This document shows positions 8,939-40,316 of a stretch of 64,000 bases of DNA, one piece after another. Position 1 is the first letter of the stretch, and each line of letters begins with the position of its first letter. Source of the DNA: Vibrio taketomensis (lineage in GTDB: Bacteria; Pseudomonadota; Gammaproteobacteria; Enterobacterales; Vibrionaceae); contig NZ_AP019649.1 in assembly GCF_009938165.1 (NCBI RefSeq), forward strand, positions 1,054,001 to 1,118,000, given 5' to 3'. The notes beneath the pieces were generated by a model, which saw only the letters and a program-made list of their open reading frames with translations, was not told where the DNA came from and ran no database searches. A program made the translations under genes and the position numbers.

Positions 8939-10369
8939 TTAATCCATCAAGCTTTTTGACTTAATCGCTTTTTTGGCAAGCTCTTTAGCAAAGTCAGCGA
9001 TGTCTGCTTCCATTGCGTCGATGGTAGGGCGAATCTCATCGAGGGTTACCGTTTGCATTTGGCGGTTTTCCATCACCACTTTGCCGTTGACGATGGTGGT
9101 GTCGACGTTGCTTGGGTTCGCTTGGAATACCAACGTCGCGTATGGGTCGTAGTTTGGCATCATGTTGGCGGATTGGGTTTCAACAATGATGATGTCAGCT
9201 TGTTTGCCCACTTCTAATGAGCCGATTTTGTCTTCCATATGCAGAGATTTAGCGCCGCCTAGCGTTGCCATTTCAATCACTTGTTCTGGGATCATAATCG
9301 TGCGGTCATCATGCTTTAGACGTTGCATGGTTGAGGCATAGCTGAGTGTGCGCCATAGATCGACTTGGTTTGAGCTCATTGGGCCGTCAGTGCCTAGGCC
9401 GATGCGCACGTCATCACGGTACATTTCCCATGCAGGTGCCATGCCTGTTGCGCCTTTGGCATTCGCCATCGGGTTGTAGGCTACGCCAGCATCGGCTTGT
9501 TTTACCAACTCAATATCGTTTTCAGAGAAGTGAATACCGTGTGCGAGCACAACGCGCTCATCTAATGCGCCGATTTGTGCTAGGTATTCAACCGGTGATT
9601 TCGCGCTGTGTTCTTCTTTAATACGTCCTTCCTCATTTGGGAATTCGGCAACGTGGATAAGCACAGGCACGTCATGCTGTTTTGATAAGCGGTTGATCTC
9701 TTGCAGTTTATCTTTGCTGACGGTGTATACCGCATGTGGCGCATAGGCTGGCGTGATCAGGGGATCCTGCTTGTATTGCTCAATAAATCCCTCTGCGTAC
9801 TCAATACCGCCATAAGCTTCTTTGCTATCTACTACAGGGAATTTAATCACGGTTTGGCCAAGTACTGCTCGTAGGCCGACTTCTTTGGTCGCTTTGGCCA
9901 TTTCATCCATGTGGTAATACATATCAACGTAAGTAGTTACGCCGCTTTGTGCTAAGTCGATGGCACCCAATTTGGTTGCATTGTAGATAAGCTCACGGCT
10001 TAGCTTTTCACCTTCCAATGGGAAGAAGTAAGCAAAGAGGCGGTTAGCGATGCCTTCTTCACCTAAGCCACGAAAAGCAATCATCGGTAAGTGGTTGTGG
10101 GTGTTGATCATCCCTGGCATCACAATGCCATCGTTGGCATCAATGGTTTTTGGTGCACGGTATTGTGCTGCGATGTCTGCTTCACCAACGGCAATGATTT
10201 TGTCGTCTTTGACAACCACCACACCATCTTCGATCACTTGCATGGTCTGGTTGATAGTTAACACCTCGCCATTGGTGATGATGAGGTCAGCATTATAGTT
10301 AGGTGCGAACTGAGCGCAGCCGCTAACGGTAAGTGCAACAAAGGAAGCAAGCAAAGTAGGCTTAAGCAT
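8939..10369 (-). CDS. Lipoprotein amidohydrolase of the TRZ/ATZ (SAH/MTA deaminase-like) family
   Basis: A 476-residue metal-dependent hydrolase. The N-terminus is a lipoprotein signal with lipobox LTVSGC, so the enzyme should be anchored on the outside of the cytoplasmic membrane or in the outer membrane. Metal-binding motifs are in the right order: NTHNH (about 90), HVAEF (about 240), AHGIHFSE (about 275) and GTDGPMSSN (about 330). The family deaminates S-adenosylhomocysteine, methylthioadenosine, guanine or chlorohydrolase substrates; the exact substrate is not visible here. Export is unusual for a family that is mostly cytoplasmic. The gene is alone on the minus strand, downstream of the Lrp-type regulator. 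Confidence 0.85.
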   Translation of the reverse strand: MLKPTLLASFVALTVSGCAQFAPNYNADLIITNGEVLTINQTMQVIEDGVVVVKDDKIIAVGEADIAAQYRAPKTIDANDGIVMPGMINTHNHLPMIAFRGLGEEGIANRLFAYFFPLEGEKLSRELIYNATKLGAIDLAQSGVTTYVDMYYHMDEMAKATKEVGLRAVLGQTVIKFPVVDSKEAYGGIEYAEGFIEQYKQDPLITPAYAPHAVYTVSKDKLQEINRLSKQHDVPVLIHVAEFPNEEGRIKEEHSAKSPVEYLAQIGALDERVVLAHGIHFSENDIELVKQADAGVAYNPMANAKGATGMAPAWEMYRDDVRIGLGTDGPMSSNQVDLWRTLSYASTMQRLKHDDRTIMIPEQVIEMATLGGAKSLHMEDKIGSLEVGKQADIIIVETQSANMMPNYDPYATLVFQANPSNVDTTIVNGKVVMENRQMQTVTLDEIRPTIDAMEADIADFAKELAKKAIKSKSLMD

Positions 10370-29198: not shown

Positions 29199-29933
29199 AT
29201 GTTAGACAAGGTCGCCCTCGTTATTGCTCAGTATCAAATTCCTGGAAGCTATAACGGATTCTCATATTCTGAGTTGCTCACTTACACCAAGTTACCAAAG
29301 AGTACTTTGTCACGTTTGTTGGCAAATCTTGTTGCGTCGGGTTTTCTGGAACGCGATAAGCAAGGCAAGTTTGTGCTAGGCAATTTAATCATCGCATCGG
29401 CGACCAATGTCCTCTCCAGTAATTTAATTGACATCGCATCGGAATTAATGGGCAACTTGTCACGTGAGACGGGTTTAGCGGGATACATTTCGGTGTTATC
29501 AGGTCACAGCGTGATTGTGACTCGCTCTTATTCTGGCAATCGTCTTCAACCTCAATTTGTCTCTCCTGTTGGTTGCCGCGTTTGTGCCGCGCAAACCGCG
29601 GTAGGCCGTGCCATTTTGTCACGAATGGACAAAGCCGTCGTACTTGACGTATTGACCGAGCATTATGCCGAGTACGACGCATTTCAAATTGCCGCGCAAA
29701 TCAAAATGGCGGATTCCAGCCGATGTATCAAAACAGAGGGTGAATTTATCACTGGCGTGGGCACGTTGGCGACGAACGTTCGCCACCCTATGACAGGCGA
29801 TGTGGTGGGACTTTGTTTGTCCTATCCACAAGATCAGTTAGAAACAGATGTATTAGTGAGTGCAGAGCAGGCACTGCTTGGTGTTGCACGTAGAGTTGGT
29901 GTCCAAGTCAAAGACACGTATTGGGTTGAGTAA
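29199..29933 (+). CDS. IclR-family transcriptional regulator
   Basis: 244 residues: a winged-helix region at about 1-65 (YSELLTYTKLPKSTLSRLLA) and a C-terminal effector domain at about 90-240. IclR regulators usually control the adjacent catabolic operon in response to its substrate. Here the next gene starts five bases after the stop, so the regulator is probably in the same transcript as the enzymes. Confidence 0.85.
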   Translation: MLDKVALVIAQYQIPGSYNGFSYSELLTYTKLPKSTLSRLLANLVASGFLERDKQGKFVLGNLIIASATNVLSSNLIDIASELMGNLSRETGLAGYISVLSGHSVIVTRSYSGNRLQPQFVSPVGCRVCAAQTAVGRAILSRMDKAVVLDVLTEHYAEYDAFQIAAQIKMADSSRCIKTEGEFITGVGTLATNVRHPMTGDVVGLCLSYPQDQLETDVLVSAEQALLGVARRVGVQVKDTYWVE

Positions 29934-29938
29934 TCATT

Positions 29939-30862
29939 ATGATTTTAAAACAAACATTAACCACATTGGACTTGTTAGATTGTCCAAATGTAGACGGCAC
30001 AGTCATTAAGAATTACTTCGCTCAATATGAAGGAGTGGACTGCACGGTAAGCACGATTCATGGCAAAAAAGGTAAAACGGATTTCGTTCGCATCGTTATT
30101 CCAGGGCTTAATGGCAAGTTAAGCGGTGGTCAATCACCGACGTTAGGTGTGATTGGTCGCTTAGGTGGTATTGGTGCAAGACCGACTCATGTTGGATTGG
30201 TATCTGATGCAGATGGCGCAGTTGCTGCCATTGCGACAGCAATGAAGTTGGCGGAAATGTTCCAACGTGGTGATCGCATTCAGTCAGATGTGATCATTAC
30301 CACGCATATTTGCCCTGATGCACCGACATTCCCTCACAAACCGGTCGACTTTATGGACTCTCCAGTGTCAATGGTCGAAATGAATCAACATGAGGTCGAT
30401 CCGGCATGCGATGCGATTATCTCTGTTGATACAACCAAGGGGAACCGCATTATCAACCATAAAGGTATCGCGATTTCACCAACGGTTATGCAGGGTGTGA
30501 TTTTGCATGTGGCAGAGGACATGGTGCGTATCGTCGAGACTTGTACCGGTCAACCTGCGGTGACATTTCCACTCTCAATGCTAGACATTACGCCATACGG
30601 CAATGGTTTGTATCACATTAACAGTATTTTACAGCCAGCCGTCGCTGCGCAATGTCCGGTTGTTGGCTTGGCGATTACCGCAGCGGTTGCTGTTCCGGGA
30701 TGCGCAACGGGTGCAAGCCATGCGACCGATATTGCTCTGGCCGCTTCAGTATGTGTTGAAACTGCGAAACAGATGAGCGCTGGTAATTGTAAGTTCTTCT
30801 GTACTGAGCAAGTCGAAATCTTCCGTAATTTATACGGCAGTATGCAGCATCTTCAAAGTTGA
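29939..30862 (+). CDS. DUF1177 family protein
   Basis: 307 residues. I recognise DUF1177 by the overall sequence: KLSGGQSPTLGVIGRLGGIG, TTHICPDAPTFPHKPVDFMD, VDTTKGNRIINHKG and LDITPYGNGLYHIN. His/Asp-rich stretches (HICPDAP, HKPVD) could bind metal. It is the first enzyme-like gene of the operon, just behind the IclR regulator. The biochemical activity is not established to my knowledge. Genome context here, with permease, nitrilase and racemase, suggests catabolism of a cyclic amide or ureide (inference). Confidence 0.75.
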   Translation: MILKQTLTTLDLLDCPNVDGTVIKNYFAQYEGVDCTVSTIHGKKGKTDFVRIVIPGLNGKLSGGQSPTLGVIGRLGGIGARPTHVGLVSDADGAVAAIATAMKLAEMFQRGDRIQSDVIITTHICPDAPTFPHKPVDFMDSPVSMVEMNQHEVDPACDAIISVDTTKGNRIINHKGIAISPTVMQGVILHVAEDMVRIVETCTGQPAVTFPLSMLDITPYGNGLYHINSILQPAVAAQCPVVGLAITAAVAVPGCATGASHATDIALAASVCVETAKQMSAGNCKFFCTEQVEIFRNLYGSMQHLQS

Positions 30863-30908
30863 TGTGTGCGGCTTAGATGAATTCAAATCTAGTTAAAAGG
30901 AATAAACT

Positions 30909-32156
30909 ATGAAAGAGAATGAAAATCTCATTAACAACCCGGTCCCCATGGACCAACGTATCGGCTGGAAAGCGCCATTAATTAACTTCTTGGGCTGTAA
31001 TATTGCGCTAAGTGAGTTGATGGTTGGCGGCGCACTTATCGCAGGTATGAGTGTTTCTGGGTTAGTGACTGCGGCGATTATTGGTAACCTTATTTTGATC
31101 GTGGTTGCCACTATTCAAGGCAATATTGCGGCTCGTGAAGGTCTGAACACTTACGTATTAGCAACGGGTGCTTTTGGTAAAAAAGGCGGCGTGTGGATGA
31201 TTTCCTTGCTGCTTGGTTTTACCAGTTTTGGTTGGTTTGGTATTCAAGCCGGGGTTGCGGGCCTCTCTATTCAACAAATTTTCCCATCCGTAAACCTGAC
31301 TTTTGCCACTATTGTACTTGGCCTGTTGATGATGGTTGTGGCTGTATACGGCTTCTCGCTAATGGCAAAATTTAACGCTTTTGCATTACCACCTTTGATT
31401 TTGCTGATGATCTACGGTTTGTACAAAGCGATGTCCGTAGACAACAGCATTGCCATTAGTGATTACCAACCATTGGCTGAAAATGCGATTTCGATGTTAG
31501 ACGGTATCAATTTAGTGGTGGGTGTGGTGATCGTTGGTGCGGTTATTTCACCAGATTATTTACGCTATACCCGTAACGTGAAAGATGTGGCGATCATCGC
31601 GATTGTTGGCATTGGTTTTATCTCATTTATTCAACAGCTTTCTGCCGGCATTATGGCGATAAACTCACCAACCTGGGACATCACCGCTGTAATGGCTGAT
31701 TTAGGCATGGGGTGGGGGGCATTCTTAGTTCTACTCCTAGCGGCTTGGTCGACTAACTTGAGCAATGCCTATTCTGGTGGTTTGGCGCTGAAAAATATCT
31801 TCCCAGATGTGAATCGCTCAACGCTTACCTTGGTTGCAGGTTTAATTGGTACCGCTTTAGCAGCATCAGGTTTGATCTTTAAGTTCCAAATGTTCTTGTC
31901 GGTACTGAGTATCGCCGTGCCTGCAGTCGCTGGGGTTATGTGGGCAGAATATTACCTGATCCAAGGTAAGAAGTTTGTTCAACGTGAAGGCTTCAACTGG
32001 TTTGCAGTCGGCGCTTGGGTGTTGGGCTTTGCAGTATCGATGCTTTCCAATAAATACGGTTTTGGTTTACCGCCAGTGAATGCGATCTTGGTTTCGGGTA
32101 TCGCTTATTGGTTGGTGATGTCACGTCTTGAAGTCGCAAAAGTACAGCCTCAGTAA
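30909..32156 (+). CDS. NCS1-family permease (cytosine/purine/hydantoin type)
   Basis: 415 residues with 12 predicted helices, beginning after a short polar tail with GWKAPLINFLGCNIALSELM. NCS1 permeases take up nucleobases, allantoin or hydantoins. Its place between DUF1177 and a nitrilase/racemase pair points to uptake of the substrate those enzymes degrade. AAAGGAA is eight bases before the ATG. Substrate cannot be read from the sequence. Confidence 0.85.
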   Translation: MKENENLINNPVPMDQRIGWKAPLINFLGCNIALSELMVGGALIAGMSVSGLVTAAIIGNLILIVVATIQGNIAAREGLNTYVLATGAFGKKGGVWMISLLLGFTSFGWFGIQAGVAGLSIQQIFPSVNLTFATIVLGLLMMVVAVYGFSLMAKFNAFALPPLILLMIYGLYKAMSVDNSIAISDYQPLAENAISMLDGINLVVGVVIVGAVISPDYLRYTRNVKDVAIIAIVGIGFISFIQQLSAGIMAINSPTWDITAVMADLGMGWGAFLVLLLAAWSTNLSNAYSGGLALKNIFPDVNRSTLTLVAGLIGTALAASGLIFKFQMFLSVLSIAVPAVAGVMWAEYYLIQGKKFVQREGFNWFAVGAWVLGFAVSMLSNKYGFGLPPVNAILVSGIAYWLVMSRLEVAKVQPQ

Positions 32157-32180
32157 TAAGAGCATGACTTGGAGTATAGA

Positions 32181-32981
32181 ATGACGACAAAACTTCAGTT
32201 AGCCATGATCCAGCCGGGCGGTAAGCCTGGCGAGGTCGAGCAAAACATTGAATTGGCTATCGCACAATGCCGTGCCGCGGCTGAGAAAGGCGCGAACTTT
32301 TTGTGCCTTCCTGAGCTTTTCAATACTGGCTACCACTTACAGTATTTAGCACATGACACGATTACCTTAGGCGAGCAGTGGTACAAATCTACGGTTGAGC
32401 GATTTTCAGCGTTAGCGAAAGAGCTCGAAGCTTATATTGTTTGCCCGATAGTCGAGCCAACGTCAATGCCAGGTGTGGCATTAAACAGTGCATTGTTATT
32501 TGACGATCAAGGTGTGTTAGTGACTAGCTACGCTAAGTCACATCTTTGGGCACTTGAAGCCTCATATTTTTGTGCGGGTAACCGTATTGAAGCGATTGAT
32601 ACCAAGTTCGGCCGCATTGGCTTATTAATTTGCTATGACATTGGCTTCCCTGAAGCGGCTCGTACGCTATGCAAAGATGGTGTGGAGCTCCTCATCGTGC
32701 CAGCGGCTTGGCGTATTCAAGATAAAGATATGTGGGATTTAAATCTTCGTCAGCGCGCGTTGGAAAACAACTTTTTTGTGGTGGGTATCAACGCAGCAAT
32801 GGATTTTGAAGGTTTAAACCTATTTGGTCATAGCTACGCTTGTGATCCTCGTGGAACGGTCATCGCGCAAATGGATCAGCAAGTAGGGCATCAATTAGTC
32901 GAGTTGGATTTAACGCAAGTTAAAGCCTTTCGCCAAGAGATCCCTTACTTAAAAGATCGCCGTCCAGATTTATATCGATAG
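32181..32981 (+). CDS. Nitrilase-superfamily amidohydrolase (N-carbamoylase-like)
   Basis: 266 residues with the catalytic triad clear: Glu in FLCLPELFNTGY, Lys in YAKSHLWALE, Cys in LLICYDIGFPEAARTL. Members hydrolyse nitriles, amides or N-carbamoyl amino acids. ATG at 32181 is preferred because GGAG sits seven bases upstream, while the 12-base-longer alternative begins with TTG. It forms an operon with the permease upstream; a terminator-like stem (32991) lies between it and the racemase gene. Confidence 0.85.
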   Translation: MTTKLQLAMIQPGGKPGEVEQNIELAIAQCRAAAEKGANFLCLPELFNTGYHLQYLAHDTITLGEQWYKSTVERFSALAKELEAYIVCPIVEPTSMPGVALNSALLFDDQGVLVTSYAKSHLWALEASYFCAGNRIEAIDTKFGRIGLLICYDIGFPEAARTLCKDGVELLIVPAAWRIQDKDMWDLNLRQRALENNFFVVGINAAMDFEGLNLFGHSYACDPRGTVIAQMDQQVGHQLVELDLTQVKAFRQEIPYLKDRRPDLYR

Positions 32982-32990
32982 TCATCCCTC

Positions 32991-33024
32991 AATAAGGCAC
33001 CAAATGGACTTGGTGTCTTATTTT
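32991..33024 (+). terminator. Stem-loop between nitrilase and racemase genes
   Basis: AATAAGGCACCAA pairs with TTGGTGTCTTATT around six bases, with TT following. Probably an intra-operon terminator or attenuator that lowers downstream expression. Confidence 0.6.
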
Positions 33025-33051
33025 CTCACACTGGCTTTCTAAGAGGCAGCA

Positions 33052-33690
33052 ATGAAGAATAAAACCATTGGTTTGATTCGCGTCCTTTCGGGACAGTCTA
33101 AAGAATTTCTAGCGATTCAAGAGCAGCTTGTCAGTTCATACACTGGATGTCGAGTGGTGAGCTTTTGTATTGATGATCAACCACAAGGGATCAATAGCGC
33201 AGAAACCCTCGCTTGTGCCGTGCCTAAAGTGGTGGCATTGGCTCATGCCAATCAAGATAAAGTGGATGGCATGATTATTAGCTGCACTTCAGACCCAGCA
33301 GTAAGAGAGCTAAAGCGTTCGTTAGATATTCCTGTCGTTGGTGCTGGGGAGTCTTGTTTTACGCAAGCATTTAGTATTGGTGAGCATCTCGGTGGCATTG
33401 GTATAGAGCCATATCAACCAGAAAGTATTAGCGACTTAGCAAAATCCTATCAATGTGAAGTCACGTATCGACAACCGACGGACGTGATAGATACCAATAC
33501 TCTGGAAGATAACCTAGATAAGGTTACTGACAACATTCTTCGCCTGCAAAGAGAAGGGTGTGATGCAGTGATGCTACTTTGCACTGGATTATCTAGCCTA
33601 GAGTACAGTCGTTACTATGCGCACCACTTTCGCATCGCGATTGTTGACCCACTTGAGGCAGCATCAGAAGCCATTATGCAGTTACTTTAA
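33052..33690 (+). CDS. Asp/Glu/hydantoin racemase family protein
   Basis: 212 residues with the two catalytic cysteines of this family in IISCTSDPAVRE and MLLCTGLSSLE. Related proteins include aspartate, glutamate and hydantoin racemases. A role in interconverting enantiomers of the operon's substrate is likely (inference). It lies 70 bases after the nitrilase stop and ends the operon. Confidence 0.8.
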   Translation: MKNKTIGLIRVLSGQSKEFLAIQEQLVSSYTGCRVVSFCIDDQPQGINSAETLACAVPKVVALAHANQDKVDGMIISCTSDPAVRELKRSLDIPVVGAGESCFTQAFSIGEHLGGIGIEPYQPESISDLAKSYQCEVTYRQPTDVIDTNTLEDNLDKVTDNILRLQREGCDAVMLLCTGLSSLEYSRYYAHHFRIAIVDPLEAASEAIMQLL

Positions 33691-33710: not shown

Positions 33711-34406
33711 CTATGGTAACTCAAAAATTAGGGCAGTACTGTTTGTAGTGCTCGGGTTATGGAGTTTCAGTTGGGTTTGATGCTCTACTTTTGCACCATC
33801 TCCTGCACTTATGGTGATGCCATCGACAAGCAACTCACTTTGAACTTGTTGTACATACATGTTCCGATTGAGTGGAATGTCAAACTCAAGGCTTTGGTTG
33901 GGAGCAAGGATCAATTGACGTAACGTGGCATCTTGTTTGATCTGCAGAGCGCCATTTTCACCGTCTGGTGTAGCAATGGTGGTTAACCCAAATTCTTGGC
34001 CAAAGTTTTTCTGTTGGTAGCTCGGCTTACCACCACGGGTGTTCGGTTCAATCCAGATTTGCAGTAACTGTAGCGGCTCACTATCTGATGCGTTGTATTC
34101 GCTATGATAAATCCCTTTTCCGGCAGACATTAACTGAAATTCGCCAGCGGGTAAGATCTCCACGTTACCTTCGCTATCTTGATGTCGAATCGCACCTTGA
34201 ATAATGTAGGTAATGATTTCCATATCGCGATGACCATGCGTATCAAAACCGGTATTTGGTTGAATAATATCATCGTTAATGACGCGCAAAGCGGAGAACC
34301 CCATATGCTCTGGGTCATAGTAACTACCAAACGAGAAACTGTGCTTGGTATTGAGCCAGCCAAAATCCAAATGCCCTCGATGTTCTGCTTTACGTAATGT
34401 GATCAT
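33711..34406 (-). CDS. Pirin family protein (YhaK-like)
   Basis: 231 residues, two cupin domains. Metal-binding residues of pirin are visible: HGHRDMEIITYI near residue 60 and then YHSEYNAS. AGGAG is seven bases before the ATG at 34406, which is therefore chosen over the in-frame start at 34490. Relatives include quercetinase-like enzymes and redox-sensitive pirins. No specific function can be read. Confidence 0.85.
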   Translation of the reverse strand: MITLRKAEHRGHLDFGWLNTKHSFSFGSYYDPEHMGFSALRVINDDIIQPNTGFDTHGHRDMEIITYIIQGAIRHQDSEGNVEILPAGEFQLMSAGKGIYHSEYNASDSEPLQLLQIWIEPNTRGGKPSYQQKNFGQEFGLTTIATPDGENGALQIKQDATLRQLILAPNQSLEFDIPLNRNMYVQQVQSELLVDGITISAGDGAKVEHQTQLKLHNPSTTNSTALIFELP

Positions 34407-34612
34407 AACCGTTCTCCTTTCATTGATTGCGATCAGTCTAAGCTGTGCAATCATCGAAAATAACGACGCAATTTCGTTCAACACCATCAAATAATTCGAA
34501 GGTCTATTGCCAAATTTCGTATCGGTGACGAGTTTGAGTAATAACCGCTAAGCACACTTTACTTTTGTATCTAAGGCAGACTAACTTATTGAGTAGTAAC
34601 AGGAGTGAATTT

Positions 34613-35173
34613 ATGGCTGAAATAATAATTAAAACTGACCGACCTAGGGTAGAGATGTTGTTTGCGAAATATCGTGATGTGATTGGCAATGATTACATGG
34701 GCTATCGCAATCATGTCTATCGCAACATTACGTATGCGATGTATTTTCTAGACAATGATGAGCAGTACGAACAATTGGTTGAAACCGCGTTTGTTTATCA
34801 CGATTTGGGATTATGGACGGATAAAGAGCTCGCTTATCTTGAACCTTCAGAAGCCATTGCTCTGGCGGATAACCAAACCCATCAATGGGGATTGGATCCC
34901 GATGCACTACGCGGTGCGATTCATTGGCATCATAAGATCTCGCCATACAAAGGGCCGCATCAAAAAGTGATCGAAGCGTGCCGTAAGGCGGATTGGATCG
35001 ATGCTTCAATGGGTAATGTGCGTAAAGGGCTAAGTAAAGAGCAAATTCGTCGAGTGGAAGCCGCATTCCCTAATGAAGGTTTTCACAAAACGCTGTTGCG
35101 TCTGACCAAAGATTTAGGCGGCTCGACGGTCGTCGGTAGCATTAAAGTCACACTCGGTATTGTTAAGCTCTAG
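34613..35173 (+). CDS. HD-domain phosphohydrolase-like protein
   Basis: 186 residues with HD-domain residues: YRNHVYRN, FVYHDLGLW (the HD pair) and AIHWHHKISP. AGGAG at a good distance from the ATG at 34613 fixes the start. HD proteins act as metal-dependent phosphohydrolases on nucleotides. The gene is divergent from the pirin gene. Confidence 0.75.
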   Translation: MAEIIIKTDRPRVEMLFAKYRDVIGNDYMGYRNHVYRNITYAMYFLDNDEQYEQLVETAFVYHDLGLWTDKELAYLEPSEAIALADNQTHQWGLDPDALRGAIHWHHKISPYKGPHQKVIEACRKADWIDASMGNVRKGLSKEQIRRVEAAFPNEGFHKTLLRLTKDLGGSTVVGSIKVTLGIVKL

Positions 35174-35691: not shown

Positions 35692-38116
35692 ATGAAAAAC
35701 TGGATTGATAAAGCGGTACTAACACCGATGAAGCGTCGTAGCTTCATGAAGTGGGGTGCAGCCGTTAGCGGTGGTAGTGCCCTAACAGCAGCGTTACCAT
35801 TAAAAGCAGTGGCTAAATCGGCAGCTGAAGAAACAGCGCAAACCAACACGGTTTGGTCGGCATGTATGGTGAACTGTGGTAGCCGCTGTGCGCTGCAAGT
35901 ACACACTAAAAATGGTGTGATCACACAAATTGAGTCAGACAACCGTGGTGATGACCAAGGTTTTGGTAACCACCAAATCCGTGCTTGTTTGCGTGGCCGT
36001 TCAATTAAGCACCGTGTTTACAATCCAGATCGTTTGAAATACCCAATGAAGCGTGTTGGCAAACGTGGCGAAGGTCAGTTTGAACGTATTAGCTGGGATG
36101 AAGCACTTGATTTGATGGCAGAGAAACTGCAATACACCATCAAAGAGTACGGCAACGATGCGATTTTCATTACCTACGGTTCTGGTACTCAGGGCTACCG
36201 CACCGATGGTAAAGATTGCTTTAAGCGTCTATTCAACCTTGTAGGTGGTTTCCTAGATTACTACGGTAACTACAGCTGGGGCCAAATTCAGTTTGCACTG
36301 CCATTTACTTACGGCTCAACAAAACCATCTGCTTACGGTAGTTACACCACTGAGATTGAAAACTCAGATTTATTGGTGATGTTCGGTTACAACCCAGCGG
36401 AAACTCGTATGAGTGGCGGCGGTGAAATTCACGAGCATATCAACGCACAACGTAAGAACAACGTACGCACTATCATTATCGACCCGCGTTACACCGATAC
36501 CATGCTAGGCAAAGAAGATTTGTGGCTGCCTATTCGCCCAGGTACGGATGCGGCATTAGTGGAAGGTATTGCACACGTATTGATCAAAGAAAACTTGGTT
36601 GACCAAGCGTTCCTGGATAAATACTGCCAAGGCTATGATGAAAAAACGCTGCCAGCGTCTGCACCAAAGAACGGCCACTACAAAGCGCATATTCTAGGCC
36701 AAGGTCCGGATGGTATTGAGAAGACTCCTGCGTGGGCTTCACAAATCACTGGCATTCCTGTGGATCAAATTGAACAACTTGCGCGTGAAATCGGTACGGC
36801 GAAAGCGTGTTTCATCACTCAAGGTACAGGTATTCAGCGTCAAGCTAACGGTGAGCAAACTTCTCGTGCGATCGTTATGTTACCAATCCTAACGGGTCAC
36901 ATTGGTCGTAAAGGCACGAACACCGGTGATATGCCTGCGAACTGGAGCTACCCATCGCCACGTATTCCAGTGGGTACTAACCCGATTGCGGTAAAAGTTC
37001 CGTTCTTTAAGTGGAGCGATGCGATTTTCCGTCACCATGAAATGACTGACAAAACAGACGGTATTCAAGGTGGTGAACGTCTACGTACGCCGATCAAGTT
37101 CCTGTTGAGCTACTCAGGCAACATGATCATGAACCAGCATGCTGACATCAACAAACACCGTAAATTGATTGAAGATGAGAGCAAAGCAGAGTTCATCGTA
37201 GTGTGCGATAACCACATGACGGCATCGGCTCGTTTTGCGGATCTTCTGCTACCTGACGTGACGACAATCGAAAACAACGAAGTCAGCTCAGATGGTTACT
37301 CTTCAGGCTCACTAGGCGGCGTATTCCCTCTAGTGCGTGCAATTGAACCGCTATACGAAACGCGTTGTGCTTACGATATGTGTGTGGGTCTGTCTGAGCG
37401 TCTTGGCGTGAAAGAGGCGTTTACAGAAGGTCGTACTCGTGATCAATGGCTTGAGTTCCTATACAACGGCGCGCGTGCAAAAGATCCAAAACTGCCAACG
37501 CTAGAAGATCTACGTAAAAATGGTCCTTACACATTGGCGGCGCCAATGGAGGGACGTGTGGCACTGGAAGATTTCCGTAACGATCCAGAAAAACATGCGC
37601 TAGGCACACCATCAGGCAAGATTGAGATCTACTCAACTAAGCTAGAAACCATCGCAAAAGAGTGGGTTTTGGCAGAAGACGAAGTGATCACCCCAATCCC
37701 ACAATACGTGACGACTTGGGAAAGCCATCTAGACCCGAAAACTGAGCAGTTCCCACTACAGCTATTTGGTTACCACACCAAAGGCCGCACACTCAACCTA
37801 CCACAACATTCCATGGCTACGTGAAGTAGTGTTTGACGGTATTTGGATGAACCCAATTGATGCGAAAAAACGTGGTCTGCAAAGTGGCGATTACGTGCGC
37901 GTATTCAACGACCGTGGTGAAATCCGTGTGGCGATCAAAGTGACTCCTCGCATCATGCCAGGCGTAACTGCACTAGGCCAAGGCGCTTGGTATAACCCAG
38001 ACAAAAACGGTATCGACTTGGGTGGTTGTGTGAACACACTAACCTCGCAAAAGAATACCCCATTGTCGAAGGGTAACCCTCAACACACCATTCTGGTTGA
38101 AGTAGCTAAGGCTTAA
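35692..38116 (+). pseudogene. dmsA: DMSO reductase catalytic subunit DmsA, frameshifted near the C-terminus
   Basis: Molybdopterin oxidoreductase. It opens with a twin-arginine signal (KRRSFMKWGAAVSGG), then the 4Fe-4S site CMVNCGSRC, then the molybdopterin domains ending PQLFGYH-like text. The frame from 35692 ends at 37824, but the true C-terminus (STYHNIPWLREVVFDG, ending HTILVEVAKA) continues in another frame to 38116. Adding back one CA in the CGCACAC run near 37786-37793 restores RTHSTYHNIPW. The rest of the gene shows no decay. It is the first gene of dmsABC and lies behind an FNR box. Either a real loss of anaerobic sulfoxide respiration or a sequence error. Confidence 0.85.
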
Positions 38117-38130
38117 GCGAGAGATAGAAA

Positions 38131-38757
38131 ATGACTCAATACGGATTTCACGTAGATACCAGTAAGTGTACTGGTTGTAAAACATGCCAAGTTTCATGTA
38201 AAGACCGCAGCGATCTTCCAGTGGGTGTTAACTGGCGTCGCGTATACGAATACGCTGGTGGTGACTGGGTAGAAAATGAAGACGGCACAGTAAGCCAAAA
38301 CGTATTTGCTTACTACATGTCAATCTCATGTAACCACTGTTCAAACCCTGCGTGTGTGAAAGCATGTCCAACAGGTGCGATGCATAAGCGCAGCGAAGAT
38401 GGTTTGGTTGTGGTTGATAAAGATGTGTGTGTAGGCTGCCAATACTGTGGTATGGCTTGTCCTTACGGCGCACCTCAATACCACCCAGAGAAAAAACACA
38501 TGACTAAGTGTGACGGCTGTTACGAGCGCGTGGCAGAAGGTCGCAAGCCAGTGTGTGTAGAATCTTGCCCACTGCGTGCATTGGATTTTGGTCCAATTGA
38601 TGAACTACGTAAGCAATACGGCACCAAGAACGATGTGGCACCACTGCCAGACCCACGTTTAACGTCGCCAAACGTGATCATCACTACTTGTCGTAACTCT
38701 CGTCCTTCAGGCGATACAACAGGTAGCATCCAAAACCCAACGGAGGTGTCGCTATGA
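38131..38757 (+). CDS. dmsB: DMSO reductase iron-sulfur subunit DmsB
   Basis: 208 residues with four 4Fe-4S binding motifs: CTGCKTCQVSC, CNHCSNPACVKAC, CVGCQYCGMACPYGAP and CDGCYERVAEGRKPVC. It transfers electrons from DmsC to DmsA. The gene starts 15 bases after dmsA's C-terminal frame, and its stop overlaps the dmsC start by four bases. Intact. Confidence 0.9.
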   Translation: MTQYGFHVDTSKCTGCKTCQVSCKDRSDLPVGVNWRRVYEYAGGDWVENEDGTVSQNVFAYYMSISCNHCSNPACVKACPTGAMHKRSEDGLVVVDKDVCVGCQYCGMACPYGAPQYHPEKKHMTKCDGCYERVAEGRKPVCVESCPLRALDFGPIDELRKQYGTKNDVAPLPDPRLTSPNVIITTCRNSRPSGDTTGSIQNPTEVSL

Positions 38758-39596
38758 GCGAGTTATCACTGGTTTTCTTTACCGTACTAGCACAATCAGC
38801 AGTCGGTATGTTTATCGCATTGGGTTTGGTGGAGCTATGCTTCAAGCCTGAACGTAAAGCGATGAATATTGCGTTTATGGCAAGCCTTGCGTTACTTGGT
38901 CTTGGTGCTCTTGCATCAGTGACTCACCTTGGTCAGCCACTGCGTATGTTTAACGTTATGTTCGGTCTTGCGCACCTATCACCGCTAAGTATGGAAATTG
39001 TTGCGCTATCACTATTTGGTGGTGCGGCGTTTACTTACACGGCGATGCGCGTACTTAACATTCAACCAATGCTACAAAAATTGGTGTTGCCAGTGGCAAT
39101 GGTGCTCGGTGTGGTATTTGTGTTGGCGATTGTTAACGTTTACCGCCTACCAACAGTTCTAAGCTGGAACTCTCATTGGACTACGTTCCAATTTTTGATG
39201 ACAGCGGGTGTGGTTGGCCCTGTTGCGGCAGCGTTAGTACTGCGAGTATTAGCACCGCAACTTGGCACGACTCAAGTGCATGCAGACCGCAGCTTGGCGC
39301 TACTTGCGCTAATGACGATGACGCTATCACTAGTTGGTTTTGCTGCCTACGCAGTGTGGCTAGGTCAGTTGAACGCTTACCTTAATCCATTTGCGATCGC
39401 ACACGGTGAGTTATTCACAGTGGCACGTATTGGTTTGATGGTGATGGGTGTTCTATTGCTGGCGATTCAAGCGCTACGTGGTGAAAGCCTAAACAAAGGC
39501 AGTGCATTGTTCGCATTTATCTTTGTTGTTCTGGCTGAACTTGCTGGTCGCGCGTTCTTCTACGATTCATACATTAGCGCTAGCGCAGGTATGTAA
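38754..39596 (+). CDS. dmsC: DMSO reductase membrane anchor DmsC
   Basis: 280 residues with eight hydrophobic helices and no large soluble part, as usual for DmsC. It anchors DmsAB to the cytoplasmic membrane and oxidises menaquinol. The start ATG overlaps the dmsB stop (ATGA). A strong terminator follows at 39603. Confidence 0.9.
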   Translation: MSELSLVFFTVLAQSAVGMFIALGLVELCFKPERKAMNIAFMASLALLGLGALASVTHLGQPLRMFNVMFGLAHLSPLSMEIVALSLFGGAAFTYTAMRVLNIQPMLQKLVLPVAMVLGVVFVLAIVNVYRLPTVLSWNSHWTTFQFLMTAGVVGPVAAALVLRVLAPQLGTTQVHADRSLALLALMTMTLSLVGFAAYAVWLGQLNAYLNPFAIAHGELFTVARIGLMVMGVLLLAIQALRGESLNKGSALFAFIFVVLAELAGRAFFYDSYISASAGM

Positions 39597-39602
39597 TCTC
39601 GC

Positions 39603-39638
39603 AATCTGGGGTTAATCACTTAACCCCAGATTCTTTTT
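39603..39638 (+). terminator. Terminator after dmsC
   Basis: AATCTGGGGTTAA pairs with TTAACCCCAGATT around four bases, then TTTTT. The next two genes may need readthrough or their own promoter. Confidence 0.85.
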
Positions 39639-39662
39639 GTTTATTTACATGATTTAAGTCCT

Positions 39663-40316
39663 ATGAACGAAACACATTATTCCAATCTTGCAGGCCTAAC
39701 GATTGCGAGTCACTTTCTATACCGTGCCTTGCATCAAGCTGCGAACTCAGAGTTTATCGACGCGCTATATCAAGATGCGTTGTTTGATGAATGGCCGGTT
39801 GAATTGAGTAATGACAAAGTCAATCGAGGACTAGAACTCTTAAAGGCTGAGCCTGAGTTAGCGGCACTAGGTCGTGATTATGCTCAATTGTTTGTTGGTC
39901 CAAATGCACTAACGGCTGCTCCTTGGGGCTCGGTGTATCTGACGGAAGAGCAAATCACTTGTGGTGAATCAACGTTAGCCATTCGTGACTTTTATCAAGC
40001 ACATGGCATTGCCATTGACACGGGTGAGCGCGAGCCAGAAGACCATATTGGTATTATTTTTTCTTTTATCGCTTACCTTACGGATACGGCATTAGATGCA
40101 CAAGTGGTAGAAGTGAGTCACAACGATAGCTTGCAGGCATTACAAACGTTTCTGACCGAGCATGTATTGCCATGGGCACCACGCTTTTGCCTGACGATGC
40201 GTGAAGCGGCGCAAACACCATTTTATCAAGGTATCAGCTATTTAGCAGAAGGTACCCTCGAGCAGTTAGCTCAATTGGTGGATGCAAAATATAAGTTGGT
40301 GAAGTTGTACCGATAA
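39663..40316 (+). CDS. dmsD: TorD/DmsD-family redox enzyme maturation chaperone
   Basis: 217 residues, helical, with the TorD-family features RDYAQLFVGPN and EREPEDHIGIIFSF. These chaperones bind the twin-arginine signal of molybdoenzymes and help cofactor insertion. Placement just after dmsABC points to DmsA as client. TorD and DmsD cannot be told apart from sequence alone. Confidence 0.8.
   Translation: MNETHYSNLAGLTIASHFLYRALHQAANSEFIDALYQDALFDEWPVELSNDKVNRGLELLKAEPELAALGRDYAQLFVGPNALTAAPWGSVYLTEEQITCGESTLAIRDFYQAHGIAIDTGEREPEDHIGIIFSFIAYLTDTALDAQVVEVSHNDSLQALQTFLTEHVLPWAPRFCLTMREAAQTPFYQGISYLAEGTLEQLAQLVDAKYKLVKLYR

Follow-up and report, generated by a model that had tools for sequence, protein, structure and literature searches.

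A DUF1177 operon of Vibrio taketomensis as a candidate importer-linked pathway for a small amide-bond compound

Five same-strand open reading frames (ORFs) lie head to tail at positions 29199-33690 of a 64-kb stretch of Vibrio taketomensis DNA (contig NZ_AP019649.1, forward-strand positions 1,054,001 to 1,118,000; hereafter the window). According to the ORF list of the window they encode an IclR-family regulator, a DUF1177 protein, an NCS1-type permease, a nitrilase-superfamily amidase and an Asp/Glu/hydantoin-racemase-family protein, each with a Pfam match over cut-off, and they stand where an initial annotation of the sequence had placed them (Table 1). The operon may serve an importer-linked pathway for a small amide-bond compound in which DUF1177 would make the first cut, a reading that is held tentatively, with somewhat less than even confidence. 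A gene set of importer and hydrolases looks catabolic, as that annotation had proposed. The new elements are a predicted fold, a set of invariant residues and a genomic context for a large family that has no name; the pathway is offered as an idea. The predicted fold, the invariant residues and the consistent importer-linked context make DUF1177 testable with a short list of substrates.

The gene company of DUF1177 was read in the nearest 80 of at least 585 confirmed relatives from one scan of reference genomes, with flanks of up to 8 kb on each side; two of these loci are V. xiamenensis contigs with identical proteins. Neighbours were assigned to 29 tracked families by home-made profiles built from single-linkage clusters, which took their names from the Pfam matches of a single member or of a few. 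AroM was found in 72/80 loci (either strand), OPT transporters in 47/80, an M29-like peptidase in 42/80, a PF01177 racemase in 39/80, IclR in 38/80, PucR in 35/80, DUF917 and Opp permease B in 28/80 each, and a PepE-type S51 peptidase in 10/80. HyuA and NCS1 each occurred in 7/80, a nitrilase-type amidase in 5/80, CDOA with CDOB in 4/80 and HyuB in 3/80. On a count per genus label (assigned by hand), 33 of 38 have AroM and 26 of 38 have OPT. An OPT, Opp-permease/binding-protein or NCS1 gene lay on the same strand within 8 kb in 78 of the 80 loci, and the two loci without such an importer are short contigs (L009, 6.7 kb; L036, 3.3 kb). Among 12 control stretches (17-20 kb each), the same importer profiles were positive in one; this small set comprises eight stretches around another gene in same-genus genomes and four from elsewhere in the window, of which two overlap. 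On the DUF1177 strand, M29, S51 or M20 peptidase genes were present in 54/80 loci and HyuA, HyuB or DUF917 in 29/80.

This company extends beyond bacteria. On a haloarchaeal plasmid with a DUF1177 protein of 48% identity, Opp-type genes, DUF917, DUF1177, AroM, an aminopeptidase and a racemase stand in a row, and plasmids of Klebsiella and Sodalis carry IclR, OPT, DUF1177, AroM, PepE and a racemase. The core of the loci is an importer and DUF1177, usually with AroM, to which peptidases or ring enzymes are added. Of the tracked families, three loci (L049, L050 and L067, one of them on a contig that ends 3.5 kb downstream) have nothing but OPT beside DUF1177 on its strand, suggesting that DUF1177 is the step the loci have in common. 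None of the loci read is richer in ring enzymes than that of Alicyclobacillus suci (L040:1-16921), with several DUF917, HyuA and HyuB pieces, NCS1 and DUF1177. The two V. xiamenensis contigs (L043, L046) hold Opp, HyuA, DUF917 and DUF1177, a type unlike that of the window.

The DUF1177 protein matches PF06675 over residues 39-306, far above the gathering score of 25 bits, and at least 7413 relatives were found at E 0.001 among 8000 candidates scored, in bacteria and archaea (two archaeal control genomes). It has no other Pfam family at E 0.001, hence no M28, M42 or PF01979 match, and a literature search under DUF1177 and PF06675 found no function. Structure prediction, which had been suggested earlier as a way of looking for a metal site, gave a catalytic domain with the predicted fold of a zinc exopeptidase (clan MH/MF), at 8-17% identity to the matched enzymes; the metal-ligand positions, judged by spacing, appear altered. 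The structure matches of this model include M20 aminoacylase-type entries such as 1xmb and DapE. The conserved His/Asp stretches noted initially were borne out: R74, G76, D90, D92, H123, D216, N228, Q232 and D264 are invariant in 56/56 aligned sequences, and D164 and H226 are kept in 55/56.

The metal ligands of M28 peptidases are His-Asp-Glu(Glu)-Asp/Glu-His. By order and spacing, R74, D90, H123, D164 and H261 of DUF1177 would correspond to His97, Asp117, Glu151, Asp179 and His256 of the Aeromonas aminopeptidase. Mapped in this way, one His ligand would be lost, with Arg instead, and a His would take the place of the catalytic Glu. The latter is not absurd, because one structure match, 2anp, is titled as a functional Glu151-to-His mutant of the Aeromonas aminopeptidase. 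DUF1177 would thus differ from the zinc exopeptidases of this clan (M28, M42, M20, M17) in its ligand positions, and profile comparison with M28 and M42 found no similarity. In a divergent DUF1177 branch of Cupriavidus and relatives (L084 among them) H261 is replaced, and one conserved His is thus dispensable there. Several other matches of DUF1177 were judged to be chance, namely one phmmer match to a solved structure (E 0.91) and profile matches to RNase P protein (E 0.04) and AF1917 (E 0.2). The DUF1177 named as part of Arabidopsis E3 ligases is presumably another family or a misprint. It appears in a passing mention in a paper on fungal DUF1996 proteins (PMC4738358).

The PDB entry nearest to the permease is CodB (E 2.7e-35; Mhp1, E 4.4e-9), and the protein scores 171 bits against the CodB equivalog NF008241, under the cut-off of 326. 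The amidase is nearest to Nit2 (E 4.8e-29), with N-carbamoylputrescine amidase at E 1.3e-22 and N-carbamoyl-D-amino-acid hydrolase at E 1.6e-9 at best; its best NCBIfam model, TIGR03381 (N-carbamoylputrescine amidase), gives 120 bits, under the cut-off of 410. Its nitrilase Glu/Lys/Cys motifs are intact (PELF 44, KSHL 119 and CYD 151, in ATG-form numbering). The racemase is nearest to 2eq5, entitled 'hypothetical hydantoin racemase' (E 1e-29), and it keeps the two active-site cysteines of the family, C78 and C177, both with cysteine counterparts in that entry.

The window operon holds NCS1 and the amidase in place of a peptide importer, AroM and a peptidase. Its nearest relative among the loci fetched is that of Vibrio sinensis (L002), with identities of 84% for DUF1177, 92% for NCS1, 79% for the amidase and 79% for IclR, the gene that precedes DUF1177 there. 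In Bacillota, L053 and L068 have beside DUF1177 an NCS1 protein 59 and 58% identical and an amidase 49 and 48% identical to those of the window, and also carry HyuA, a racemase, OPT, DUF917, AroM and M29; being near-copies of each other, the two loci amount to roughly a single case. A search of 396 other genomes from one Bacillota order gave no further orthologue of the window NCS1 at E 1e-60, and a search of plasmids at the same threshold gave none either. In a tree of 84 DUF1177 proteins, for which the tool warned of long branches meeting (the Vibrio pair included), the NCS1 label needs six gains or losses, at least five of them forced by well-supported branches; 6 of 500 label shuffles were as low, so that the label is scattered yet somewhat clustered. 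The NCS1 proteins of L037, L040, L065 and L080 share only 24-30% identity with that of the window, which indicates that different NCS1 carriers came beside DUF1177 more than once. Such repeated arrival may be a sign of a shared substrate logic.

In the proposed pathway, the NCS1 permease would take up a small compound, and DUF1177, with its predicted exopeptidase fold and altered metal site, would carry out the first intracellular step by cleaving an amide (peptide-type) bond. The nitrilase-type amidase could then take off another amide or carbamoyl group, and the racemase, with its two cysteines, could convert the wrong-handed form. IclR would control the gene set, which is probably transcribed together. 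The substrate class may be cyclic dipeptides (2,5-diketopiperazines) or hydantoin-like derivatives; for the window variant a small substrate is suggested because the importer is of the NCS1 type.

The link to cyclic dipeptides comes from some Bacillota loci that hold CDOA (PF00881) and CDOB (PF19585), the two subunits of cyclodipeptide oxidase (CDO). PF19585 was found in 5 of 37 DUF1177 genomes hand-picked from the 80 loci; in four it lies within the DUF1177 locus, and in the fifth CDOB stands near AroM elsewhere (L154). Among the 396 other genomes of the Bacillota order searched above, two have CDOB, adjoining DUF1177 in one of them (L152) and without DUF1177 in 19.9 kb in the other (L153). 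A published study describes synthase-less CDO clusters as enriched in PF01177, DUF917, AroM and ABC peptide, OPT and EamA transporters, often with peptidases; its authors suggest that such clusters serve purine metabolism or the making of secondary metabolites rather than the breakdown of peptides, and the main text does not mention DUF1177 (PMC11055893). Relatives of the DUF1177 locus share with these clusters AroM, DUF917, PF01177, OPT, EamA and peptidases, whereas the window variant shares only the racemase among the tracked families. Another report notes that hydrolases of cyclic dipeptides may be among the products of HyuA/HyuB-type genes (PMC6061476). Cyclic dipeptides or their products are a reasonable substrate class.

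Several observations weigh against an importer-linked pathway that begins with DUF1177. Standard two-zinc catalysis is doubtful, given that on the spacing-based mapping the first metal His would be Arg and the Glu pair would be replaced; position H261 is His in 38 of 56 sequences, with Asn in 13, Ser in three and Gln in two. Alignment by hhalign against home-made, shallow M28 (13 sequences) and M42 (9 sequences) alignments gave probabilities of 0.03-0.14 of 100. The 80-locus sample is rich in Paenibacillus and Enterobacterales, and importers appear in 5/12 control stretches once ABC ATPases are counted. AroM, OPT, DUF917 and CDO genes were not found by profile search of the window (home-made profiles for CDOA/CDOB), nor was AroM found in the host genome. 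CDOB was not found in 32 of the 37 DUF1177 genomes, which makes cyclic dipeptides a lead from a minority. The racemase may be a separate addition to the operon, because it was not found in the 8-kb flank of the V. sinensis locus and is about 30-33% identical to racemases of other DUF1177 loci.

As far as sequence shows, DUF1177 may either open a ring or cut a linear amide. In a reading that is unlikely but has a substantial chance, DUF1177 would be a dipeptidase for linear substrates or resemble an aminoacylase, and would act on peptides of unusual kinds (D-, iso- or N-modified); rings, where they need opening, would fall to DUF917 or HyuA/HyuB, and the window variant would act on a small linear amide. 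The fold with its M20 aminoacylase-type matches, the same-strand peptidase genes, the frequent OPT and Opp importers and the ring enzymes that accompany DUF1177 all agree with such a role. However, the importer of the window belongs to the NCS1 family, which is known for ring compounds rather than peptides, another peptidase is already present in over half of the loci (54/80), and the ligand set appears altered. Rather unlikely in our judgement is the more ambitious reading in which DUF1177 would be a new class of cyclic-amide hydrolase that uses a zinc-exopeptidase fold but has its metal site or acid-base site rearranged. It would start a widespread pathway that breaks down cyclic dipeptides and similar rings and has this first step in common, with importer (OPT, Opp or NCS1) and finishing enzymes swapped according to substrate size. 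The initial annotation had also envisaged a new cyclic-amide hydrolase; the predicted hydrolase-type fold and the ring enzymes at 29/80 loci agree with this. If true, such a hydrolase would fill a real gap, since a 2013 source states that the bacterial opening of cyclic dipeptides was poorly known and that the peptidases tested failed to cleave cyclic dipeptides (PMC3852281).

DUF1177 could also have lost its hydrolase chemistry and assist AroM or the racemase by binding, sensing or isomerisation. An Arg in all 56 sequences where the first His ligand would be expected, an apparently replaced Glu general base and the presence of transferrin receptor, a non-enzyme of the same fold, among the VIA matches speak for this. 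It is nevertheless improbable, as D90, D92, H123, D216, N228, Q232 and D264 are identical throughout and look catalytic, and the three loci with OPT and DUF1177 alone leave no other tracked enzyme. More improbable still is the model of the initial annotation, in which the operon degrades hydantoins and DUF1177 serves as the hydantoinase. Hydantoin utilisation (hyu) operons comprise a permease, a racemase, a hydantoinase and an N-carbamoylase. The window likewise has an NCS1 permease, a PF01177 racemase whose closest PDB entry bears the name of a hydantoin racemase, a nitrilase-superfamily amidase and a further candidate hydrolase adjacent to them, so that the accessory families of hydantoin use are indeed there. 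However, the permease is nearer CodB and the amidase nearer Nit2 than their hydantoin-specific relatives (N-carbamoyl-D-amino-acid hydrolase for the amidase), and the further protein has the predicted zinc-exopeptidase fold. A recognisable hydantoinase is absent from the five genes, as had been said; genome-wide, the HyuA N-domain (PF05378) had no match and D-hydantoinase (TIGR02033) four weak ones (at most 32 bits, where the cut-off is 393), a result in favour of this model from searches that did not cover allantoinase and HyuB. The idea that DUF1177 takes the place of the hydantoinase is not supported: HyuA stands alongside it in 7/80 loci, its usual company across the loci consists of peptide importers, AroM and peptidases, and since DUF1177 occurs beside both HyuA and DUF917 it does not simply replace either. 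A likeness to thiohydantoin desulfurases, the NCBIfam name of DUF917 models, extends to the DUF917 protein of L034, which matches NF058529 at 266 bits but falls below the cut-off of 440, and the window has no DUF917. Literature matches listed for thiohydantoin or ergothioneine breakdown were mostly synthetic chemistry, and a search for S-methyl thiohydantoin desulfurase returned none.

Table 1. Genes of the DUF1177 operon (positions in the window).
Feature	Position	Strand	Evidence
IclR-family regulator, first gene	29199..29933	+	PF01614 (IclR_C) 31 bits, PF09339 (HTH_IclR) 31 bits, over cut-off
DUF1177 protein, candidate amide/peptide-bond hydrolase	29939..30862	+	PF06675 410 bits; predicted zinc-exopeptidase-like fold
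NCS1-type permease (nucleobase/hydantoin transporter family)	30909..32156	+	PF02133 (Transp_cyt_pur) 83 bits
Nitrilase-superfamily amidase	32169 (TTG) or 32181 (ATG)..32981	+	PF00795 (CN_hydrolase) 168 bits; ATG assumed
Asp/Glu/hydantoin-racemase-family protein, two cysteines	33052..33690	+	PF01177 (Asp_Glu_race) 70 bits

The intergenic gaps are, in operon order, 5, 46, 12 or 24, and 70 bases, and the operon is bounded by opposite-strand genes for an OsmC-like protein and a pirin. Promoter and terminator scans were no better than chance (4 found against 8.4 expected, and 6 against 5.1), and PADLOC gave no match. The host genome (4.3 Mb, two contigs) has a single copy of the DUF1177 gene. DUF1177 was absent from 36 other same-genus genomes and from 24 more within the order, and a phylum-wide sample of 398 genomes has it in three, the host being one of them; the family is nonetheless found in V. 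sinensis and V. xiamenensis. The operon genes have a GC content of 44.7-47.5%, against 43.8% for the window; base composition is thus no clear sign of foreign origin, whereas rarity within the genus is such a sign. The flanking pirin has a match at E 0.001 in 53/61 same-genus genomes (host included), and full-length copies, at 57-69% identity, in only 16/60 of the others. None of 12 other window genes tried adjoins pirin in the eight loci read, and no empty insertion site could be demonstrated. The window copy is a pirin/quercetinase-like protein (33711-34490, minus strand), and in-frame stops occur in three same-genus copies (G022, G028, G898).

Elsewhere in the window, an amidohydrolase at 8939-10369 (minus strand; PF01979, 237 bits), of TRZ/ATZ or deoxyadenosine-deaminase type, lies 19 kb from the operon and is under the cut-off of every one of 25 NCBIfam models shown. 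A 202-residue protein at 34565-35173 (plus strand) matches nothing in Pfam or NCBIfam at E 0.001 and is HD-domain-like by eye only. The three ORFs at 38131-40316 are uninterrupted. They follow a molybdo-oxidoreductase (35692-38130, DMSO-reductase-like, named by eye) whose ORF stops early at 37824; another frame continues with its apparent C-terminal part to about 38115, a frame break that marks either a pseudogene or a sequencing error.

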